Shown: positions 52,495 through 63,615 of the stretch, in pieces | How positions within the stretch are numbered: position 1 is the stretch's first letter | Layout: every line of letters starts with the position of its first letter | Origin: Vibrio agarivorans | GTDB lineage: Bacteria; Pseudomonadota; Gammaproteobacteria; Enterobacterales; Vibrionaceae | Length of the DNA stretch: 64,000 bases | Assembly: GCF_030409635.1 (NCBI RefSeq) | Contig: NZ_JAUFQF010000004.1 | Span: 2,204,241 to 2,268,240, forward strand | Direction of reading: 5' to 3' | Program-made: the position numbers and the translations under genes | Notes under the pieces: generated by a model | What the model was told of the DNA's origin: nothing | What the model saw: only the letters and a program-made list of their open reading frames with translations | Database searches by the model: none

Positions 52495-52751
52495 AACTCC
52501 TTGTTCCTAGTTTTCTTTAAGTAGCACATATCTTCTTGATGTTACTAGTAGTCCGAACTTGGTCTAACTCATCATCAGGCTACTGATGACTTTATTGCTT
52601 CAGGTTATATTTCCGAAATATGAACTTCACGAGTTTACGCGTGCCTATTCTTTGTTGGCATTTTGAATGAATTCGTTCCTAATAATTAATCCACTTCGTA
52701 TTTGTTCTTTATCTAAGCCAATGGGAATCTTTGTAATCAACCTCAACACAG
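52495..52751. other. gap before the 190-bp repeats
   Basis: About 255 bp with no recognised gene; a partial match to the tandem unit's start precedes 52752. Confidence 0.35.
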
Positions 52752-53865
52752 CCCCAATTGACCGTTCTAACAGAAATAACCTCACTTCATACGCTATCTA
52801 ATTAATTTTATTTAGGTACATATGGTTGTTCGAATAGGCAAATAATGGAGATCGCCCATGGCTGTTTTCTTTGACCTCTGGTGTTAATAGGTGGCCTAGA
52901 GTCAAATTTTGAGGGTTCGTGAGGGTATCAGCTCGACACAACCCCAATTGACCGATCATACAAAAATCATTTCCATTCATGCTGATATGTAATTGATTTT
53001 ATTGATAAATGTATGGTTGTTTCAGTAGGGGAATAGTGGCGTTCGTCCATAGCTGTTTTCTTTGACCTCTGGTGTTCATAGGTGGCCTAGTGTCAAATTT
53101 TGAGGGTTCGTGAGGGTATCAGCTCGACACAGCCCCAATTGACAGGGCGACCGCATGAGTTGATTTTGTGTTAAGCAAAATCTTATACTTTGTAATGATT
53201 AGTCAAAATCACGCTATAACAGAAAATGAAACCTAGAAATAAGGCTTAAAAATCGAACAGCCACATTTCGGTTTTCGTACTGTACTTGCTGGGAATTTGT
53301 TTCTGATAACAACTTTATAACTCATGCGGTTGCCCTGCCCCAATTGACCGATCATACAAAAATCACTTCCATTCATGCCGATATATAATTGATTTTATTG
53401 ATAAATGCATGGTTGTTTCAGTAGGTGAATAGTGGCGATCGTCCATAGCTGTTTTCTTTGACCTCTGGTGTTAATAGGTGGCCTAGAGTCAAATTTTGAG
53501 GGTTCGTGAGGGTATCAGATCGACACAACCCCAATTGACCGATCGTACAAAAATCACTTCCATATCATGACATATATAATTGATTTTATTGATAAATGCA
53601 TGGTTGTTCCAGTAGGGGATAGTGGCGATCGTCCATAGCTGTTTTCTTTGACCTCTGGTGTTAATAGGTGGCCTAGAGTCAAATTTTGAGGGTTCGTGAG
53701 GGTATCAGCTCGACACAACCCCAATTGACCGATCATACAAAAAACATTTCCAGTCATGCTTATATGTAATTGATTTTATTGATGAATGTATGGTTATTTC
53801 AGTAGGGGAATAGTGGCGATCGTCCATAGCTGTTTTCTTTGACCTCTGGTGTTAATAGGTGGCTT
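52752..53865 (+). repeat. tandem array of about 190-bp units, five copies
   Basis: Copies begin CCCCAATTGACC at 52752, 52942, 53133 (interrupted after ten bases), 53338-53347 (continuation), 53529 and 53719, spaced 190-191 bp. Each contains GCTGTTTTCTTTGACCTCTG and TCAAATTTTGAGGGTTCGTG. TTTGAC...GTCAAA arms inside each unit could form a hairpin. The first and last copies are diverged or partial. No conserved plus-strand frame. Confidence 0.88.
53143..53337. mobile_element. MITE-like element inserted in the 190-bp array
   Basis: 195 bp, no ORF. 19-bp terminal inverted repeats (CAGGGCGACCGCATGAGTT / its mirror with one mismatch). An exact 10-bp duplication, CCCCAATTGA, flanks it at 53133-53142 and 53338-53347. 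The 10-bp duplication fits an IS4- or ISAs1-type transposase acting in trans. Confidence 0.85.
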
Positions 53866-54208: not shown

Positions 54209-56659
54209 ATGACCAACAGCATTAACAAAGCCAAGTTATCCGAAACAGACATCATTACCAAATTCATACTTCCTGCGATCAAAGAGGCGGGGTGGGATGA
54301 TATGACTCAGATTCGCCAGGAAGTGAAACTGCGCGATGGTAAAGTGATCGTTCGAGGGCAAGCTGCTGCTCGCAAAAAGGTAAAGTCTGCTGATATCGTC
54401 TTATATCACAAGCCAAGTATGCCGCTTGCTGTTGTGGAAGCGAAAGCCAATAAGCACGAAGTAGGCAAAGGCATGCAACAAGGTATGGATTATGCCAAGT
54501 TACTCGAAGTGCCATTTGTTTTTGCTTCAAATGGTGATGGGTTTATCTTCAGAGATCTCACTAATCCCATTCAGCTTGAAACCGAGATTCGTTTAGAAGA
54601 CTTCCCAACACCAGAAGAGTTGTGGAAAAAATATTGTGTATGGAGAGGTTACAAAGAAGAACACCTGCCAGTAATTACACAGGATTATTTTGATGACGGT
54701 AGTGGCAAGTCGCCACGTTACTATCAGCTTCAAGCTATCAATAAAACAGTTGAAGCCGTGGCCGCTGGGCAAGATCGTATCTTACTGGTCATGGCGACGG
54801 GTACAGGCAAAACGTACACGGCCTTTCAAATCATTTGGCGCTTATGGAAAGCGAAAGCCAAGAAGCGAATTTTATTTCTTGCTGATCGCAATATTCTAGT
54901 CGATCAAACCAAAACCAATGATTTCCAACCATTCGGTACTGCGATGACGAAAATCACAGGTCGAAAGGTAGACCCTGCATTCGAGGTTCACCTAGCACTC
55001 TACCAAGCACTAACAGGACCAGAAGAAGAACAAAAAGCCTATAAGCAAGTTGACCCAAATTTCTTTGACCTGATTATCATTGACGAGTGTCACCGTGGCA
55101 GTGCTTCTGAAGATAGCGCATGGCGTGAAATTTTGGAATACTTCAGCTCTGCAACACAAGTTGGTTTAACGGCAACCCCTAAAGAAACCGATGAAGTCTC
55201 TAATATAGAATACTTTGGCGACCCAGTTTATACCTACTCGCTAAAAGAGGGTATTGAGGATGGCTTCCTAGCGCCCTACAAAGTGGTTCGTGTCGATATT
55301 GACGTAGACGTGCAAGGTTGGCGACCAACCAAAGGTCAAACTGATAAGCATGGCGAGGTGATTGAAGATCGAATCTACAACCAGAAAGATTTTGATCGCA
55401 CCATGGTCATTGATGAGCGTACAGATTTAGTGGCTCAAACTATTACCAATTACCTTAAACGCACTGACCCAATGGCAAAAACCATCGTGTTCTGTAATGA
55501 CATTGACCATGCAGAGCGTATGCGTCGTGCTTTAGTTAACCTCAACCCAGAGCAGGTCAAAAAGAACGACAAGTATGTAATGAAGATTACTGGGGATGAT
55601 GAAATCGGCAAAGCCCAGCTTGATAATTTCATCAACCCTAAAAAGAAATACCCTGTGATTGCCACAACCTCAGAGCTTATGACAACAGGTGTAGATGCAA
55701 AAACCTGTAAGTTGGTTGTGTTGGACCAAGGCATCCAGTCGATGACCAAGTTTAAACAGATCATTGGTCGAGGTACTCGCATTGATGACCGCTACGGCAA
55801 ACTGTGGTTCACCATATTAGACTTTAAGAAAGCAACCGAACTGTTTGCCGATGAGCGCTTTGATGGAACACCAGAGCGAGTGAAAGTCACCACCCCTGAA
55901 CAATTTGAAAATGTTGATGACTTAAATGACATCATTGACGGTATTGATGATGTAGATATAGACAATCCGTTTGGTGATGAAGAAATAGACTCAGATTCAA
56001 TTCAAGAGCCAGAACAGACTTACGGTAGCGATTCGGGCAGTTCATCTAGCGGTAATGCTGAAGGCAATGATGACTGGGATGACGAAAACAAAGTTCGTAA
56101 GTTCCATGTCAATGGCGTATCGGTTAAAGCGCTCGCTGAACGTGTTCAATATTATGATTCAGATGGCAAGCTCGTAACCGAATCATTTAAAGATTACACG
56201 TGCAAAACCATGGTGAAACAGTTCTCCTCTTTAGACGAATTCACCAAGCGTTGGAATGAATCCGACCGTAAGCAAGCCATTATCGATGAGTTAGCCGAAG
56301 CAGGTATTCTATGGGAAGCGTTAGAAGACGAAGTGGGTAAAGAAATGGACCCATTCGATATGATTTGCCATGTCGTTTACGACCAACCTGCTTTGACTCG
56401 TAAAGAGCGTGCCGATAACGTGAAGAAGCGTAACTACTTCACTAAATATGGTGACACTGCGCAGCAAGTGCTCAATAACCTGTTAGACAAATACGCTGAT
56501 GAGGGTGTTCAAGAGATAGAGAACATTCATGTACTGAAGGTTAAACCATTTGATGAAATGGGCCGACCGCTGGAAATCATTAAAAAGGGATTTGGTGGTA
56601 AGAATCAGTATCTAGAAGCGGTGCAAGATCTAGAAGCAGCAATTTACCAAGTAGGATAA
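54209..56659 (+). CDS. hsdR: type I restriction enzyme R subunit
   Basis: 816-aa translocase/endonuclease that cuts unmodified DNA after pulling it past the HsdM2S complex. N-terminal nuclease (D62 in [10 protein letters not shown]77-x-K79 in VVEAKAN), then a SF2 motor: MATGTGKT (about 195-202), [15 protein letters not shown] and [10 protein letters not shown]. EcoEI-type layout. First gene of an operon that also contains three unrelated genes before hsdM. Confidence 0.96.
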
Positions 56660-56709
56660 TTGAACAGTGAAGTTCAAACGATTTTTTAGTAGCACCCTAA
56701 GGATAGTCA

Positions 56710-57978
56710 GTGCATATTTTTGTGTTCGGTAATTTGAATGTAGGAAAGTCTTCGTTTTGTAAGAAGTTAAGTGAAAAACTACCCACCTATGTTCAGCTAT
56801 CCCTAGATCATCATAGACAGTTGTACAGTGATGGAAGCCTTGAAGGTGAGGCGCTTGCCTGCGATAAGTTTGTTGATGCGGTTGCAAATACGCCTAGCGC
56901 TATTGTTGAGTTTACTGGTCGTGGACCAGTCGCTGAGAAGCTTCAAGCTGCTCTTACGTATAAGTGCGGTATTCTTGTTGTGATAACACGAAACAAGGCT
57001 GAAAACATCGCATCTGTATACTCTGAAAAGTTTGAAAACGTCCCATATCCTATTGAATATAAGCAGCAACAAACTCTGGTTCAGACGATTGAACAGTTAG
57101 AATGCCACACTACTTTGTCGGCATTGGAATTGGCCTGGAAAAATCAAATTTGGCACTCATATACGCATAATTTTGAACAGAGTTTTCACTCTTTTTGGAA
57201 GCAGTTTCCTAAACAGCACCATGAGCTAACAGCGCGTATCAACCGATTTGCATCAAGGCAAACAGGTATTGAAGTTGCCGTAATATACGGCTCATTGGGA
57301 GCAAATCAGGTTACACTCGATTCAGACATTGATTATTTCATCCAATCGAGTACCCCCGCTTCATATTGGCTTGAGGCGTTTCAAGAGTATTTTGGTCATG
57401 AGATCATCCACGCAGATCTCATTGGTAGCAAGATCACTTTACGCTTTAAAACCTCACTTCTTGTGGAAGTAGTAATTGGAAAAGAGCTTTCAGAGATAGC
57501 GCTATATTATCGAGAGTCATTAATCCACAATAGCGCCTTCACTCTTGTTAAAGGTAGCTCAGAAGACCTAGACCAACTGACTAGCTTCATAGGTACACAG
57601 GTCTCGACTAGCAATTTGGTAGCATCGATAGCGGGTGAACTTTACTTTTTGTTCTGTTCACTGCCCAAGCTAGTCAAATCAGGTGACGCTTATAAGTACT
57701 CTTTTCATACAATGATCATTCGTCATTATGCAGTTCAATTAGAGCACCTTCTCCTCGGGATTTCGGCACATAACTACCTGCCAAAACAAGCGACAGTCAA
57801 CCTTCCTGCATTTCCTTGGGAGAGTTTCGACACGTCACCAACGTCAATAGAAACACATCAGTACTTCTCTCTGTTTCAATATCTTGTGAGACTCTTTAAG
57901 CGATTGGAGAAAGCAGACTTACTTGAGATTGATAAGTACTTTTCAAAGCAAGCAGAACAACTCCATCATTTAAAATAG
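56710..57978 (+). CDS. P-loop kinase-like plus nucleotidyltransferase fusion (gene X)
   Basis: 422 aa. N-terminal kinase-like P-loop GNLNVGKSS (residues 7-15) and LSLDHH, resembling AAA_33/zeta-type nucleotide kinases. A second domain has the nucleotidyltransferase signature YGSLG (193-197) and DSDID (204-208), as in aminoglycoside or tRNA-type NTases. GTG start at 56710 with AAGGA upstream, 50 bp after hsdR and 12 bp before the transporter. It probably phosphorylates or nucleotidylates a small molecule; the substrate is unknown. Confidence 0.8.
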   Translation: MHIFVFGNLNVGKSSFCKKLSEKLPTYVQLSLDHHRQLYSDGSLEGEALACDKFVDAVANTPSAIVEFTGRGPVAEKLQAALTYKCGILVVITRNKAENIASVYSEKFENVPYPIEYKQQQTLVQTIEQLECHTTLSALELAWKNQIWHSYTHNFEQSFHSFWKQFPKQHHELTARINRFASRQTGIEVAVIYGSLGANQVTLDSDIDYFIQSSTPASYWLEAFQEYFGHEIIHADLIGSKITLRFKTSLLVEVVIGKELSEIALYYRESLIHNSAFTLVKGSSEDLDQLTSFIGTQVSTSNLVASIAGELYFLFCSLPKLVKSGDAYKYSFHTMIIRHYAVQLEHLLLGISAHNYLPKQATVNLPAFPWESFDTSPTSIETHQYFSLFQYLVRLFKRLEKADLLEIDKYFSKQAEQLHHLK

Positions 57979-57990
57979 AAGGGCTGCCTT

Positions 57991-59331
57991 GTGGCTAGGA
58001 TAGACAAAATAAACGTTAAGTTATGGCTTGTGCTGATTCTAAGCAGCTTAGCCCCGCTAATTTATACAACTACAAGAATACACTTTATTGGCAGTATGCC
58101 TGATGCATGGGCGTTTAGTATTGCGGCTCAAGTCGCGTGGCTAAATATCGGCTATGAGGTGATCAACGAAGCCTTACTTCTACCACTTGCTTTCATACTG
58201 GGGCAAGTGATCATGACCAAAGAGGCTTTTCAAAATAGGGCGGTCGTCTCACTAGGAGTGGTGGTCCTAACTTATGCGATAGTCACAGCGTTTGTTCTTG
58301 TATTTACGCCACAGTTAGTTTCTGCAATGCAGCAGCAAGAGAGTCTCTTGGCGCAAACTATCAAGTATATTCGCTTGGAATCCATTGCGATCTTCGTCTC
58401 AAGTGCTTACCTGTTCTTTAACCTCGTATTAGTACTCCATAACAAGCAAAAAGCGTTGTATAGCCTTTTAGTAATTCAGACGGTATTGACGGTTCTTTGT
58501 GACACGGTGCTAGTCAGTCAGTTACCAATGTCACTTCAGCTTGGCGTGACGGGTATTGCAATCACAAAAATTGCAGTTAATTCGGTCTTAGTTGTCGTGT
58601 CCTATAAACTGTTGTCTTTCAATGGATTGACTTTAAACCTATGCACAGTGACTTTTGATAAGGCTGAGTGGCTGAAAGAGTGGTTTAAGATTGGAACTCT
58701 TTCTGGGGCGGAGTCCCTAGTTAGAAATACCGCCTTTGTAGTCATGATTTTGCAGCTTATGAACCAACTTCAGCAAGCAGGTACATTCTGGGTGACCAAT
58801 GGTTTTATATGGGGTTGGTTGTTACTCCCAGTATTAACATTAGGGCAGTTAGTTAAACAAGATGCAGCGACCAATGACGGACTAACCACACAAAAGGTAA
58901 ATCGTTATCTACTTGTTACATGTGGCATCTTCTTGATTTGGTTCATTTCTTCTCCTCTGTGGGAGAGCTTTATTCACAATGTAATGGGGGTAGGTAACGC
59001 AGAACAGGTGGTCAACCTCGTGTATTTGATGGTGGGTTTCTACGTTGTTTTTGCGTTGAACAATGTCATTGATAGCTACTTCTATGGCATCGGCCGTACA
59101 GACCTAATGTTGTATCAGTCCTTAGCTGTGAATACCTTGTTTTACGGCGCTGCCTTTGTGCTATATCAATTCGGTTGGTTTGAGCCAACGCTTGAGTGGG
59201 TAGCCATTATGTTTGGCCTAGGAATAACCTTTGACGCACTTTTAACGTGGGGCCTGTATGTGATGTTAAGAAAACAGCAATCGGAACAAGAGTTAGTTAT
59301 TGCCCAATATCGGAGAGGTAAATATGCGTAA
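57991..59331 (+). CDS. MATE-like multidrug/small-molecule transporter (gene Y)
   Basis: 446 aa with about twelve hydrophobic helices in two bundles and the look of MatE proteins (LPLAFILGQVIMTKEA; helices around 40-440). GTG start at 57991 with AGAAGGG upstream. It overlaps the phosphatase gene by 8 bp. Export of a compound made or modified by gene X is a natural guess, unproven. Confidence 0.8.
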   Translation: MARIDKINVKLWLVLILSSLAPLIYTTTRIHFIGSMPDAWAFSIAAQVAWLNIGYEVINEALLLPLAFILGQVIMTKEAFQNRAVVSLGVVVLTYAIVTAFVLVFTPQLVSAMQQQESLLAQTIKYIRLESIAIFVSSAYLFFNLVLVLHNKQKALYSLLVIQTVLTVLCDTVLVSQLPMSLQLGVTGIAITKIAVNSVLVVVSYKLLSFNGLTLNLCTVTFDKAEWLKEWFKIGTLSGAESLVRNTAFVVMILQLMNQLQQAGTFWVTNGFIWGWLLLPVLTLGQLVKQDAATNDGLTTQKVNRYLLVTCGIFLIWFISSPLWESFIHNVMGVGNAEQVVNLVYLMVGFYVVFALNNVIDSYFYGIGRTDLMLYQSLAVNTLFYGAAFVLYQFGWFEPTLEWVAIMFGLGITFDALLTWGLYVMLRKQQSEQELVIAQYRRGKYA

Positions 59332-59917
59332 GTTGATTTTAATTCGTCATGCGGAACGACCTGAGATAGCACCAAACGAGGTGGGTAATGATGTCGTGTT
59401 GACCGAACAGGGAAAGCAAGATACGACTCAGTATGCCAAAAGCATAAGCGGTCAGGTTGTTTCTATGATGACGAGTCCTATCGAGAGGTGTATAGAAACC
59501 GCTGAAATTATCGCTAAGGAAAACGGGTTTCCCTTTGAGCAGATAGAACGCAGTCGTTTACTAGGGAACCCAGGATTTGTGATTGAAGATGGCAAAATTG
59601 CATGGCAGCAATGGCAAACCAAAGGCCATGATGTAGTAAATCAACACCTCTTATCAGCAACTGATGCCTTGCCAGGCTTTGCGGATTTTGAAACGGCCGT
59701 GAACGCTTTCCTTAATAACATCGCTACCTCATTGGCTGATGAGGCTAGCGAAGGGTTACATGTTTGGGTCACACACGATGTTATGCTCGCCACACTTGCC
59801 TCCAGAACGTTACCTAACAACCTTACATTAGCCGACTGGCCTCACTTTTTAGGTCATCTAATTGTGACGTTGGAAGAGACTGGTGAACTTTCATTCGAAT
59901 ACCTTCAAAAGCCGTAA
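59324..59917 (+). CDS. histidine phosphatase family protein (gene Z)
   Basis: 197 aa. LILIRHAERPE contains the catalytic RHxxR-like RHA motif (RHGE variant), MMTSPIERCIETAEI the second Arg, and HVWVTHDVMLA the second His. Branch of the phosphoglycerate-mutase-like superfamily. ATG at 59324 after GGAGAGG; a TTG at 59300 lies inside the transporter gene. Last of the three genes, 82 bp before hsdM. Confidence 0.87.
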   Translation: MRKLILIRHAERPEIAPNEVGNDVVLTEQGKQDTTQYAKSISGQVVSMMTSPIERCIETAEIIAKENGFPFEQIERSRLLGNPGFVIEDGKIAWQQWQTKGHDVVNQHLLSATDALPGFADFETAVNAFLNNIATSLADEASEGLHVWVTHDVMLATLASRTLPNNLTLADWPHFLGHLIVTLEETGELSFEYLQKP

Positions 59918-59999
59918 ACAATGCAATGCAGCGCTGAGTTAAAAAGTGCAATTAAGTTATAATATCGCCCAATCATGGAATACGAAAAGTAAGAAAATT

Positions 60000-61493
60000 A
60001 TGTCGGTCAGTTCAGTAATTAAATCCATCCAAGATATCATGCGTAAAGATGCGGGTGTTGATGGTGATGCGCAGCGTCTAGGTCAAATGTCTTGGCTATT
60101 GTTCCTTAAAGTGTTTGATGCTCAAGAAGAAGAGCTAGAGCTTGAGATGGATGATTATCGAGAACCAATCCCAGAAGAGTACCTATGGCGTAACTGGGCG
60201 GCGGATGCTGAAGGCATGACAGGTGATGATCTGCTTGAGTTTGTTAATGACGATCTATTCCCAACGCTGAAAAACTACACCGCACCGATTGATAAGAACC
60301 CTCGCGGTTTTGTAGTCAAAGAAGCATTCAGCGATGCGTTCAACTACATGAAGAACGGTACGCTTCTACGCCAAGTCATCAATAAGCTGAATGAAATCGA
60401 CTTTACAGACTCTAACGAACGTCACTTATTCGGTGATATTTACGAGCAAATCCTTAAAGATCTTCAAAGTGCAGGTAATGCAGGTGAGTTCTATACCCCT
60501 CGTGCCGTGACTCGTTTTATCGTTGACCGTCTCGATCCAAAGCTTGGTGAATCTATCATGGACCCTGCAACGGGTACAGGCGGTTTCCTTGCTTGTTCAT
60601 TCGACCATGTTAAAAACAATTACGTGAAGACGGCTGCCGACCACCAAACCCTACAAAAGCAGATCCACGGCGTTGAGAAGAAACAGCTTCCGCACTTACT
60701 GTGTATCACCAATATGATGCTGCATGGCATTGAAGTACCTGTACAAATCAAACACGGCAATACGCTAAACAAGCCGCTTTCAAGTTGGGACAGCAACATC
60801 AATGTGATTGCGACCAACCCTCCGTTTGGTGGCACAGAAGAAGATGGTATTGAGAAAAACTTCCCTGCCGAAATGCAGACGCGTGAAACTGCCGATCTGT
60901 TCTTACAACTAATTATCGAAGTGCTTGATGAAGGCTCTGATACCAAGAGCGGTGGTCGAGCAGGTGTGGTACTGCCAGATGGCACCTTGTTTGGTGAAGG
61001 TGTTAAAACCAAAATCAAAAAGATGCTGACCGAAGAATGTAACTTACACACCATCGTTCGCTTACCTAATGGCGTGTTTAACCCATACACAGGCATCAAA
61101 ACCAATATTCTGTTCTTCACCAAAGGCCAGCCAACAAAAGACGTATGGTTTTACGAGCATCCATACCCAGAAGGCGTTAAGAACTACAGCAAAACCAAGC
61201 CAATGAAGTTTGAAGAGTTCAAGCAAGAGCAAGAGTGGTGGGGTAGCGAAGAAGACGGTTTTGCTTCTCGTGTTGAGAGCAAACATGCATGGAAAGTGTC
61301 GATTGAAGAGATCATCGAACGCAACTTCAACCTTGATATTAAGAACCCATATCAAGAAGAAGTGGTCAGTCATGACCCACAAGAGTTACTAGAAAGCTAT
61401 CAGCAGCAGCAACAAGAGATCACAGAGCTGCGTAACAAGCTGAAAGGCATTCTTGGTGATGCGCTGAAATCATCAGTAGGTGAGGGTGAATGA
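60000..61493 (+). CDS. hsdM: type I DNA methyltransferase M subunit
   Basis: 497 aa. N-terminal helical region, SAM motif DPATGTGGF (188-196) and catalytic NPPF (273-276) for adenine-N6 methylation. ATG at 60000 fits the family N-terminus MSVSSVIKSIQDIMRKD. Its stop overlaps the hsdS start (ATGA). Confidence 0.96.
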   Translation: MSVSSVIKSIQDIMRKDAGVDGDAQRLGQMSWLLFLKVFDAQEEELELEMDDYREPIPEEYLWRNWAADAEGMTGDDLLEFVNDDLFPTLKNYTAPIDKNPRGFVVKEAFSDAFNYMKNGTLLRQVINKLNEIDFTDSNERHLFGDIYEQILKDLQSAGNAGEFYTPRAVTRFIVDRLDPKLGESIMDPATGTGGFLACSFDHVKNNYVKTAADHQTLQKQIHGVEKKQLPHLLCITNMMLHGIEVPVQIKHGNTLNKPLSSWDSNINVIATNPPFGGTEEDGIEKNFPAEMQTRETADLFLQLIIEVLDEGSDTKSGGRAGVVLPDGTLFGEGVKTKIKKMLTEECNLHTIVRLPNGVFNPYTGIKTNILFFTKGQPTKDVWFYEHPYPEGVKNYSKTKPMKFEEFKQEQEWWGSEEDGFASRVESKHAWKVSIEEIIERNFNLDIKNPYQEEVVSHDPQELLESYQQQQQEITELRNKLKGILGDALKSSVGEGE

Positions 61494-63268
61494 TGAGCCT
61501 TGACCAAACACCTATCAATCAGTTGATTACAGACAATATTGATACTTGGACTTCAACGGTAAAAACTAAAGCAACAACAGGTCGTGGCAGTAGTAAAAAA
61601 CTAGAGCTGTATGGCGTTAAAAAACTGCGTGAGCTGATTTTAGAGTTAGCTGTGCGAGGTAAGTTAGTACCTCAAGATCCAAGTGATGAGCCTGCTTCTG
61701 TTTTGTTTGAGCGAATTGTGGAAATAAAAGCGCAATTGGTCAAAGAAAAGAAGATTAAGCCACCTAAAAAGTCTGTTGAAATTAGTGATGATGAGAAGCC
61801 ATTTGATATACCTAAAAATTGGAAATGGATTCGCTTAGCCGATTATGCACAAATATTTTCAGGTAATGCTTTTAAAAGTGGCGACTTCTCTTCAGAAGCT
61901 GGCACAAAAGCTATCAAAATTACCAATGCAGGTGTAGGTCATTTGATTGAAACTGATGAGTATTTACCAGAAGAATTTTTGACTACATATAGTCAATATA
62001 GAGTGGTAAAGAATGACCTTATTCTAGCTCTTACACGACCATATATCTCAGATGGACTGAAAGTGAGCATGTGTCCAGATAGCTACCATAACTCTTTATT
62101 GAACCAACGTGTTGCAGCAATTAGAGCATATGTGAATCCTGAATATGCTTTTTTCATGTTGAGTAGTCCATATGTATTGAATACATATAAGAACCGCTTT
62201 AGTGGTAGTGGCTTGCAACCAAATTTAAAAATGAGTGATGTTACAGAGCTTGTCATTCCTTTATGTTCTGAACAAGAACAACACCGTATCGTCGCAAAAG
62301 TCGATGAACTAATGACACTCTGCGACCAACTAGAGCAACAAACCGAAGCCAGTATTGCGGCACATCAAGTATTAGTGGCAACGCTATTAGACACCCTAAC
62401 CAACTCGGCAAACGCTGAAGAGCTAATGCAAAACTGGCAAATGGTTGCGGAGCACTTCGATACCCTGTTCACCACAGAAGAAAGCATTGACCAGTTAAAA
62501 CAAACCATCCTGCAACTGGCGGTAATGGGTAAGCTTGTCCCACAAGACTCAAATGATGAACCTGCTGCAAAGCTGCTTGAGCGTATTGGGGAAGAAAAAG
62601 CGCAGTTAATCAAAGAGAAGAAAATCAAAAAGCAAAAAGCACTACCGCCGATCGCTGATGATGAAAAGCCGTTTAAACTGCCAAATGGTTGGGAGTGGAG
62701 TAAACTTCAAGACCTTTGTTTTAAAATCACCGATGGAGAGCATTCAACTCCAAAAAGGACTGAAACTGGACATTACTTGTTATCCGCAAGAAATGTGACT
62801 AATGAGGGTATTATTTTAGGTGATGTTGATTATGTTCCTGATTTTGAATTTGCAAGGATAAGAAATAGATGTGACCCCAACATTGGAGATATTCTAATTT
62901 CTTGTTCAGGTAGTGTTGGGCGTGTTGCTCTGGTTGATAGAGACAATGCTTATTCTATGGTTAGAAGTGCTGCAATGATCCGCCCTTGCAATACTAACTT
63001 ATCAAAAGAATATTTGGCTCTAATGTTGCGAAGTACTTATTTGCAATCTCAGATGAAAAACCGTTCGAAGCAATCAGCACAAGCAAATTTGTTCTTGGGT
63101 GCAATTAGTAACTTAGTTGGCGTTATTCCTCCATTGTGTGAGCAGGAAAGAATCGTTTTTAAAGTTTCTGAGCTGTTGGCTATCTGTGAACAGCTTAAGT
63201 TGTACATAAAAGATTCTAAGGCTACCCAACTAAACCTTACCGACACTATTGTTGAACAGGCGGTATAA
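61490..63268 (+). CDS. hsdS: type I restriction specificity subunit
   Basis: 592-aa DNA-recognition subunit. Two target-recognition domains (about 110-260 and 400-560) separated by repeated spacer segments: ELAVRGKLVPQD...EKKIK and QLAVMGKLVPQD...EKKIK. This internal duplication sets the half-site spacing. Longer than typical because both spacers are extended. The recognised sequence cannot be predicted from here. Confidence 0.95.
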   Translation: MMSLDQTPINQLITDNIDTWTSTVKTKATTGRGSSKKLELYGVKKLRELILELAVRGKLVPQDPSDEPASVLFERIVEIKAQLVKEKKIKPPKKSVEISDDEKPFDIPKNWKWIRLADYAQIFSGNAFKSGDFSSEAGTKAIKITNAGVGHLIETDEYLPEEFLTTYSQYRVVKNDLILALTRPYISDGLKVSMCPDSYHNSLLNQRVAAIRAYVNPEYAFFMLSSPYVLNTYKNRFSGSGLQPNLKMSDVTELVIPLCSEQEQHRIVAKVDELMTLCDQLEQQTEASIAAHQVLVATLLDTLTNSANAEELMQNWQMVAEHFDTLFTTEESIDQLKQTILQLAVMGKLVPQDSNDEPAAKLLERIGEEKAQLIKEKKIKKQKALPPIADDEKPFKLPNGWEWSKLQDLCFKITDGEHSTPKRTETGHYLLSARNVTNEGIILGDVDYVPDFEFARIRNRCDPNIGDILISCSGSVGRVALVDRDNAYSMVRSAAMIRPCNTNLSKEYLALMLRSTYLQSQMKNRSKQSAQANLFLGAISNLVGVIPPLCEQERIVFKVSELLAICEQLKLYIKDSKATQLNLTDTIVEQAV

Positions 63269-63270
63269 CT

Positions 63271-63615
63271 ATGGCAGTTGTCTTCAATCAGCCTCAAACT
63301 ATTGCGCAGTTGCTAGAGCAAAAACTCACCATTCCTGAGTATCAGCGCCCGTACAAATGGCAACCCAAGCACGTTAATCAACTGATTGATGACATCTTTA
63401 ACCACCGCACTAAGCCTTGCTATCGGCTTGGTACGGTGGTACTGCATAAAGACAAAGATTCAAAAACCAACGAAGGAAAGGGCGCACTCAACATAGTCGA
63501 TGGTCAGCAACGCCTGCTTACCCCTAACGCTACTTTACACCATTCTGGATGGAGAAGAGAAAACCATCTCATCAACTCTTCTTGAGCACAGATTTGAAGC
63601 CTCGGTCAGTATCAT
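63271..63615 (+). pseudogene. DUF262 (GmrSD-like) N-terminal fragment, frameshifted
   Basis: TIPEYQRPYKWQPKHVNQLI and IVDGQQRLLT are the DUF262 start. An extra C in ACCCCTAACG near 63523 breaks the frame; the +2 frame continues TLLYTILDGEEKTISSTL to about 63612, after which resemblance stops. Truncated and non-functional. Starts 2 bp after hsdS. Confidence 0.85.

Follow-up and report, generated by a model that had tools for sequence, protein, structure and literature searches.

A kinase-nucleotidyltransferase and MATE transporter gene pair as a candidate exchangeable cassette between hsdR and hsdM of Vibrionaceae type I restriction loci

Introduction

That type I restriction loci can enclose other genes is already known, and two such cases, TgvAB and PrrC, have proved to be real defence systems. 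Here we analyze a 64,000-nucleotide stretch of Vibrio agarivorans DNA (contig NZ_JAUFQF010000004.1, positions 2,204,241 to 2,268,240; hereafter the window, meaning the whole stretch), in which three non-hsd genes, X, Y and Z, lie between hsdR and hsdM. X reads as a fused kinase-nucleotidyltransferase, Y as a MATE-family transporter and Z as a histidine phosphatase. Comparison with related genomes points to X-Y, at times with Z, as an exchangeable accessory cassette; the slot it occupies, the alternative cargos of that slot, the pairing of X with Y, the scattered occurrence of slot members on the tree of Y and, among five related loci, a recent spread of X-Y all emerge from the sequences compared.

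The cited papers describe three related situations. On VPI-2 of V. cholerae, the two accessory genes of TgvAB reside in a type I restriction cluster and act against phage without the need of HsdR restriction (PMC11411939, PMC12409362). X-Y-Z resembles this case in that accessory genes sit inside a type I cluster of a Vibrio. However, TgvA and TgvB are DUF262/DUF1524 modification-dependent restriction proteins encoded between hsdR and hsdS, whereas X, Y and Z lie between hsdR and hsdM. In Campylobacter, the rlo and mlo open reading frames intervening between hsd genes were noted as a locus feature (2005 study, cited in PMC5183652, PMC4619093). These occupy the hsdR-hsdS or hsdS-hsdM gap rather than that between hsdR and hsdM; the likeness drawn here is one of position. 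Finally, PrrC of EcoprrI is, like X-Y-Z, a non-hsd constituent of a type I locus, whose defence it extends (review PMC12707154). In contrast to X, Y and Z, in which family searches found no nuclease family, PrrC is an anticodon nuclease triggered upon inhibition of the restriction enzyme.

A further likeness concerns the kind of proteins encoded. Hailong HalAB combines a Pol-beta nucleotidyltransferase with a membrane protein, as does X-Y. The two differ in that X has an extra P-loop domain and Y belongs to the MATE family. The sequence-only reading that drew attention to the three genes knew no name for their arrangement, and we likewise found no described counterpart: among the matches listed in open-licence PMC papers, no title or abstract dealt with X-Y-Z. 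One fixed position in Vibrionaceae, from the end of hsdR to the promoter-like element of hsdM, holds many different cassettes, and reading its cargo would offer a simple, sequence-addressable route to new defence modules. A defence-linked MATE transporter, if Y proves to be one, would be unusual.

Results and Discussion

Organization of the Locus

All genes of the locus are encoded on the + strand, in the order hsdR, X, Y, Z, hsdM, hsdS.

54209-56659, + strand: hsdR, EcoAI/FtnUII-type restriction subunit (NF046051, 1192.1 bits; PADLOC REase_I); left border of the slot
56660-56687, + strand: weak hairpin (56660-56677), then six T (56682-56687), between hsdR and X; fold -4.9 kcal/mol, z -1.04
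56710-57978, + strand: X, 422 amino acids; N-terminus resembling P-loop kinases, Pol-beta nucleotidyltransferase core and a C-terminal part that matches no family
57991-59331, + strand: Y, MATE-family transporter, subfamily NF045539, 446 amino acids
59324-59917, + strand: Z, histidine phosphatase (His_Phos_1, 44.8 bits; cut-off 21.7)
59958-59963, + strand: TATAAT, -10-like promoter element of hsdM, 42 bp upstream of the ATG at 60000; right border of the slot
59946-61493, + strand: hsdM (family and PADLOC matches); the start common to relatives is the ATG at 60000
61490-63268, + strand: hsdS (family and PADLOC matches)

The coordinates and family searches confirm the original observation of three same-direction genes between hsdR and hsdM (56710-59917). 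Apart from these inserted non-hsd genes, hsdR, hsdM and hsdS are full length in the window, the picture of an embedded cassette.

The hsdR-hsdM Gap Holds Interchangeable Cargo

We searched a Vibrionaceae set of 329 genomes, one per species, with HsdR at an E-value (E) of 1e-150, which gave 60 matching stretches in 59 genomes. The tally covers 50 junctions, that of the window included. Left out were G033 (L132), where the contig ends before hsdM, G268 (L131), a short junction with a 92-residue open reading frame only, and the unread G032, G030, G198, G283, G204, G153, G015 and second match of G175. L099 was counted as a slot despite a transposase-like gene interrupting hsdM, and L117 as empty because the 757 bp of its gap belong to the end of hsdR. 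Names of cargo families rest on one representative per cluster.

Cargo was present in 37 of the 50 junctions; the other 13 carried none or almost none. In 11 junctions the only cargo is a pair of small opposite-strand genes termed pair A, consisting of CL0 (109-125 amino acids) and CL1 (132-139 amino acids). A DNA methylase cassette without AbiD occupied 7/50, five of these together with pair A. The AbiD cluster (representative PDLC02344, E 4e-52) was likewise found in 7/50, alone in four and with methylase and pair A in three. Single junctions held a DUF6998 protein with pair A (L107) and a DUF3644/EC042_2821-like nuclease protein (L118; PADLOC candidate PDC-S19). Y was present in ten slots, among them the window with X-Y-Z, L024-L026 with X-Y, and L023 and L027 with X-Y and pair A. 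No other MATE-type cluster was seen among the cargo.

X-Y takes the place of AbiD, directly after hsdR and on its strand, and known or candidate defence genes recur at the same position in relatives (AbiD in 7/50, DUF3644/EC042_2821-like in 1/50). Judged from these junctions, the hsdR-hsdM gap in Vibrionaceae serves as a site where different accessory genes, known defence genes among them, take one another's place.

Two cargos deserve a note of their own. Pair A precedes the hsdM promoter in 22/50 slots, and its CL1 member gives weak zinc-ribbon matches. The methylase cassette, found on the opposite strand in 10/50, combines an N6/N4 DNA methylase with small proteins rich in cysteine.

Pair A: L079-L085, L087-L090, L093-L097, L104, L105, L107, L116, L023, L027
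Methylase cassette: L084, L087, L093-L097, L099, L100, L116

X and Y Travel Together, Z Rarely with Them

A profile of X at E 0.001 matched 20 of the 329 genomes. Seven matches were full length and one was a remnant beside hsdR (G094); the other 12, short and confined to parts of the profile, were dropped. In all seven full-length cases 3 to 12 bp separate X from the start of Y. The order hsdR-X-Y-hsdM-hsdS holds in five of the six genomes other than that of the window (L023-L027), with the extra small gene pair before hsdM in L023 and L027. Z was found in no other slot of the 50-junction set.

The protein database, in which the named nearest relatives include V. breoganii and V. parahaemolyticus, gave a similar picture. 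Clusters of X and Y (for Y, the best 120 of 907) were linked 12 times by an identical size of the longest contig, two of these links being loci already read, our own contig and that of L001. Y and Z, with Y limited in the same way, were linked six times, own contig included, and one of these matches (1583 bp) is too short for both genes and was taken as chance. A shifted-size control averaged 0.14 links for X-Y and 0.18 for Y-Z. X and Z shared two contig sizes, a count made without a control run: our own contig and that of Photobacterium kasasachensis, where Y matches too. A shared longest-contig size shows one contig, not the spacing between genes.

The pairing in 7/7 cases and the linked database clusters, together with the scarcity of Z, therefore indicate that X and Y form the unit, which Z joins only now and then. 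Co-occurrence near hsd genes, a check suggested by the sequence-only reading, holds for X-Y in five of the six other genomes and fails in the sixth, and Z is rarely along.

Possible Separate Entries and a Recent Spread

Greater detail about the history of the cassette comes from a tree of 31 Y sequences. Slot members do not form one clade, and at least four changes of label between slot and non-slot are forced. The Y of the window is sister to that of an X-Y-PhyH copy without hsd neighbours (support 100/98). The Y of G090 lies on a short contig without hsd genes, yet it carries 121 bp of the downstream sequence of the slot, up to the hsdM promoter, and therefore probably left a slot. Counting it as slot-derived lowers the forced changes from four to three. 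Nine inner branches of the tree are open. On this tree, at least three distinct regions contain slot members of the MATE subfamily.

Among the five related loci L023-L027, synonymous divergence (dS) of both X and Y lies under that of both hsdR and hsdM in 10/10 pairs, with medians of 0.09 for X, 0.12 for Y and 0.21 for each of hsdR and hsdM. The median ratio of nonsynonymous to synonymous divergence (dN/dS, omega) is 0.26 for X, 0.23 for Y, 0.05 for hsdR and 0.03 for hsdM. The lower dS and the omega below 1 therefore mean that in these five loci the cassette is younger than its flanks and is kept by selection, more loosely than the restriction genes. These values indicate a recent spread of X-Y, independent of the flanks, within this group.

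Expression

An exact TATAAT stands at -40 to -44 of hsdM in 34 of the 44 loci with a placed start (counted without a shuffle control), a near-match at -42/-43 in six, and in four it is absent or elsewhere; the start was not found by pattern in six further loci. A strict two-hexamer promoter scan of the window did not list the element at 59958-59963 and returned 5 sites against 13.6 in shuffles. The hairpin between hsdR and X was matched in stability by 29/200 shuffles and is not listed by the terminator scan; with its six T it is a possible leaky terminator. Given the TATAAT of hsdM and this weak hairpin, X-Y-Z probably needs read-through from hsdR, and hsdM-hsdS may be expressed independently. 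Shared expression with the hsd operon, as first supposed, is probable on the hsdR side, but hsdM-hsdS may have a promoter of its own.

Features of the Encoded Proteins

Conservation in X was judged from 25 aligned sequences, that of the window included, out of 45 found. The Walker A residues G12 and K13 and the downstream D..R of P-loop kinases are kept in 24/25, P0042 having lost the P-loop. The Pol-beta motif GS...DxD is invariant (G194, S195, D206, D208 and E253 in 25/25), with E253 as third catalytic acid being our own assignment. X falls below the Pfam gathering score for PF18765 (23.5 vs 26.9), which its slot relative in L023 passes with 27.8. The kinase part has no curated family score or convincing structural relative, AAA_18 reaching E 0.023 and nicotinamide riboside kinase 1 in the PDB E 0.001 over 35 residues. 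The best PDB match of the profile (E 0.0006) is an unnamed nucleotidyltransferase-domain protein, and the C-terminal half gives no convincing family match.

X at E 1e-12 matched two of 394 genomes of the order, that of the window and G260. Plasmid and phage records held no match to X, and 83 pattern matches in viral contigs included no relative. Assignment to the MntA/HepT type VII toxin-antitoxin family was tried and rejected, X scoring 14.0 against the 60-bit MntA cut-off and the family search turning up no HEPN match for Y, Z or any hsd protein.

Y scores 574.7 bits against the NF045539 cut-off of 350, which places it in this MATE subfamily, named as efflux transporter; other members lie mostly outside hsd loci. 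MATE transporters have about 12 membrane helices, and a simple hydropathy scan of Y finds 9 clear segments. Neither plasmid and phage records (E 1e-50 and 1e-30) nor the PDB (E 0.01) held a match to Y. Z belongs to histidine phosphatase branch 1 by its curated score and by the RH, R and H residues (R8, H9, R55 and H151, kept in 43/43 sequences including that of the window), with two weak phosphatase matches in the PDB.

The Y subfamily exceeds its cut-off in 25/329 Vibrionaceae genomes, ten of them with Y in the hsdR-hsdM slot; any MATE match at E 0.001 is found in 281/329 (the 25 included), mostly weak and from other MATE genes. Five out-of-slot copies (L062, L064, L070, L074, L078) lie at or near contig ends, with one flank unread. 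Outside hsd loci, Y is found near a TIR protein (L068:7537-10263), a Thg1-like protein (L074:6357-8619), and a radical SAM enzyme accompanied by an AAA/phosphoribosyltransferase-like protein (L075:6746-10300; by likeness L072:8865-12466). In five Vibrio genomes (L067, L068, L069, L071, L078) a same-strand gene reading like a Nudix hydrolase follows Y. Genes reading like Tn7-type transposition genes, by reading only, stand beside the Y-carrying hsd loci L063, L066 and L076 and beside the lone Y of L062.

A Proposed Protective Cassette and Its Rivals

Our preferred reading is that X-Y(-Z) is an exchangeable accessory cassette of the hsdR-hsdM slot that protects the cell alongside restriction. 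X would phosphorylate and/or nucleotidylate a small or nucleotide-like molecule, Y would move either that product or its parent compound through the inner membrane, and Z, where present, would take off a phosphate. Together they may defend the cell in conflicts that involve phages or toxins. We regard this combined statement as about evenly balanced; its defence component rests on the company that the genes keep. A more specific form is tentative: an undescribed anti-phage or anti-toxin module, in which the fused kinase-nucleotidyltransferase tags a molecule and the MATE transporter moves it, rotating through the slot beside AbiD and other cassettes. What the sequences show is a selected, exchangeable cassette whose catalytic residues are conserved, in a slot that defence genes share. 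The sequence-only reading, of one small-molecule pathway possibly with a defence purpose, is partly supported.

Several observations weigh against this reading. In the sixth genome, Vibrio sp. 99-70-13A1 (L001), a PhyH dioxygenase comes after X-Y; the stretch read includes no hsd gene, and two genes alongside are umuDC-like by reading. Y stands without X in three slots (L063, L066, L076), and with an X remnant in L028. Since 15 of the 25 Vibrionaceae copies of Y lie outside an intact slot and none of six Y read outside Vibrionaceae has an hsd neighbour, Y alone is no defence marker. PADLOC gives no match for Y or Z and weak ones for X, to the candidate families PDC-M05A and PDC-S09, the best at E 0.0002. 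The commonest cargos, pair A (22/50) and the methylase cassette (10/50), are of no demonstrated defensive function. X and Y are under weaker selection than hsdR and hsdM, and the dS effect is gone when L028 is compared with the five (Y 0.50, hsdR 0.31, hsdM 0.55). Finally, three forced label changes may represent one gain and two losses.

The strongest rival, in itself rather doubtful, is drug inactivation plus efflux: X would inactivate an antibiotic-like compound, Y export it and Z help to recycle a phosphorylated form, in a slot that merely accepts cargo without a link to restriction. Lincosamide and aminoglycoside nucleotidyltransferases inactivate antibiotics, and PDB matches of the X profile include MNT, lincosamide and kanamycin nucleotidyltransferases (E 0.003 to 0.05). 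Among the 25 X members, two touch the ANT(3'')-Ic model, one Lnu(H) and one Lnu(B), next to seven for the MntA antitoxin (best E 0.0002) and one for HalB. The efflux name of the Y family and the PhyH dioxygenase after X-Y in one locus fit as well. However, the PDB matches span no more than some 50 residues at the GS...DxD core, the family matches reach only E 0.0004 to 0.009, and no family is a convincing match for the C-terminal half of X. Moreover, Y recurs in the slot across separate lineages, a recurrence that mere hitch-hiking would not predict.

In Hailong and CBASS a nucleotide signal controls a membrane effector, and X could act in this way on Y in an abortive system. A Pol-beta nucleotidyltransferase with invariant catalytic acids beside a membrane protein invites the comparison, and the one X member touching the HalB model does so at E 0.0021. 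We consider it unlikely: in a profile comparison with a two-sequence alignment of HalB-like proteins, of which one passes the family cut-off and the other does not, X aligns in only 28 columns at the generic nucleotidyltransferase motif (probability 11%), so that a Hailong-like pair is not supported beyond this motif, and the transporter family of Y occurs without X in slots and in other bacteria. No match to NF051895 (HalB) is listed for X itself in the family search. Both HalB-like genes (L134:1456-3305; L135:1462-3217) lie directly downstream of a gene reading like a WYL-type regulator.

Similarly improbable is a tiny natural-product operon, in which X, Y and a varying third enzyme would produce and secrete a metabolite, phosphorylated or nucleotidylated, with no role in defence. 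The third gene does vary (Z in the window, PhyH in L001), and the radical SAM and Thg1-like neighbours of Y elsewhere would suit such a pathway. However, each locus offers one or two enzymes with no scaffold-building enzyme seen, the slot is left unexplained, and co-transcription of the out-of-slot neighbours of Y is only presumed. That X, Y and Z are neutral passengers without a joint role is very improbable: insertions should do little harm in a slot bounded by the hsdR end and an intact promoter-like element of hsdM, and L028 has only a decayed X while three Y slots lack X altogether, but dN/dS of X and Y well under 1, conserved catalytic residues and the tight pairing speak against it.

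Neighbouring Features of the Window

Upstream of hsdR, positions 52742-53863 hold a direct-repeat array in which a 49-nt unit occurs five times, at spacings of 190, 396, 191 and 190. After hsdS lies a short GmrSD-like piece (63271-63585), and beyond it, on the opposite strand, a gene reading like a tyrosine integrase (L133:1723-3066); the two together suggest the edge of an island.
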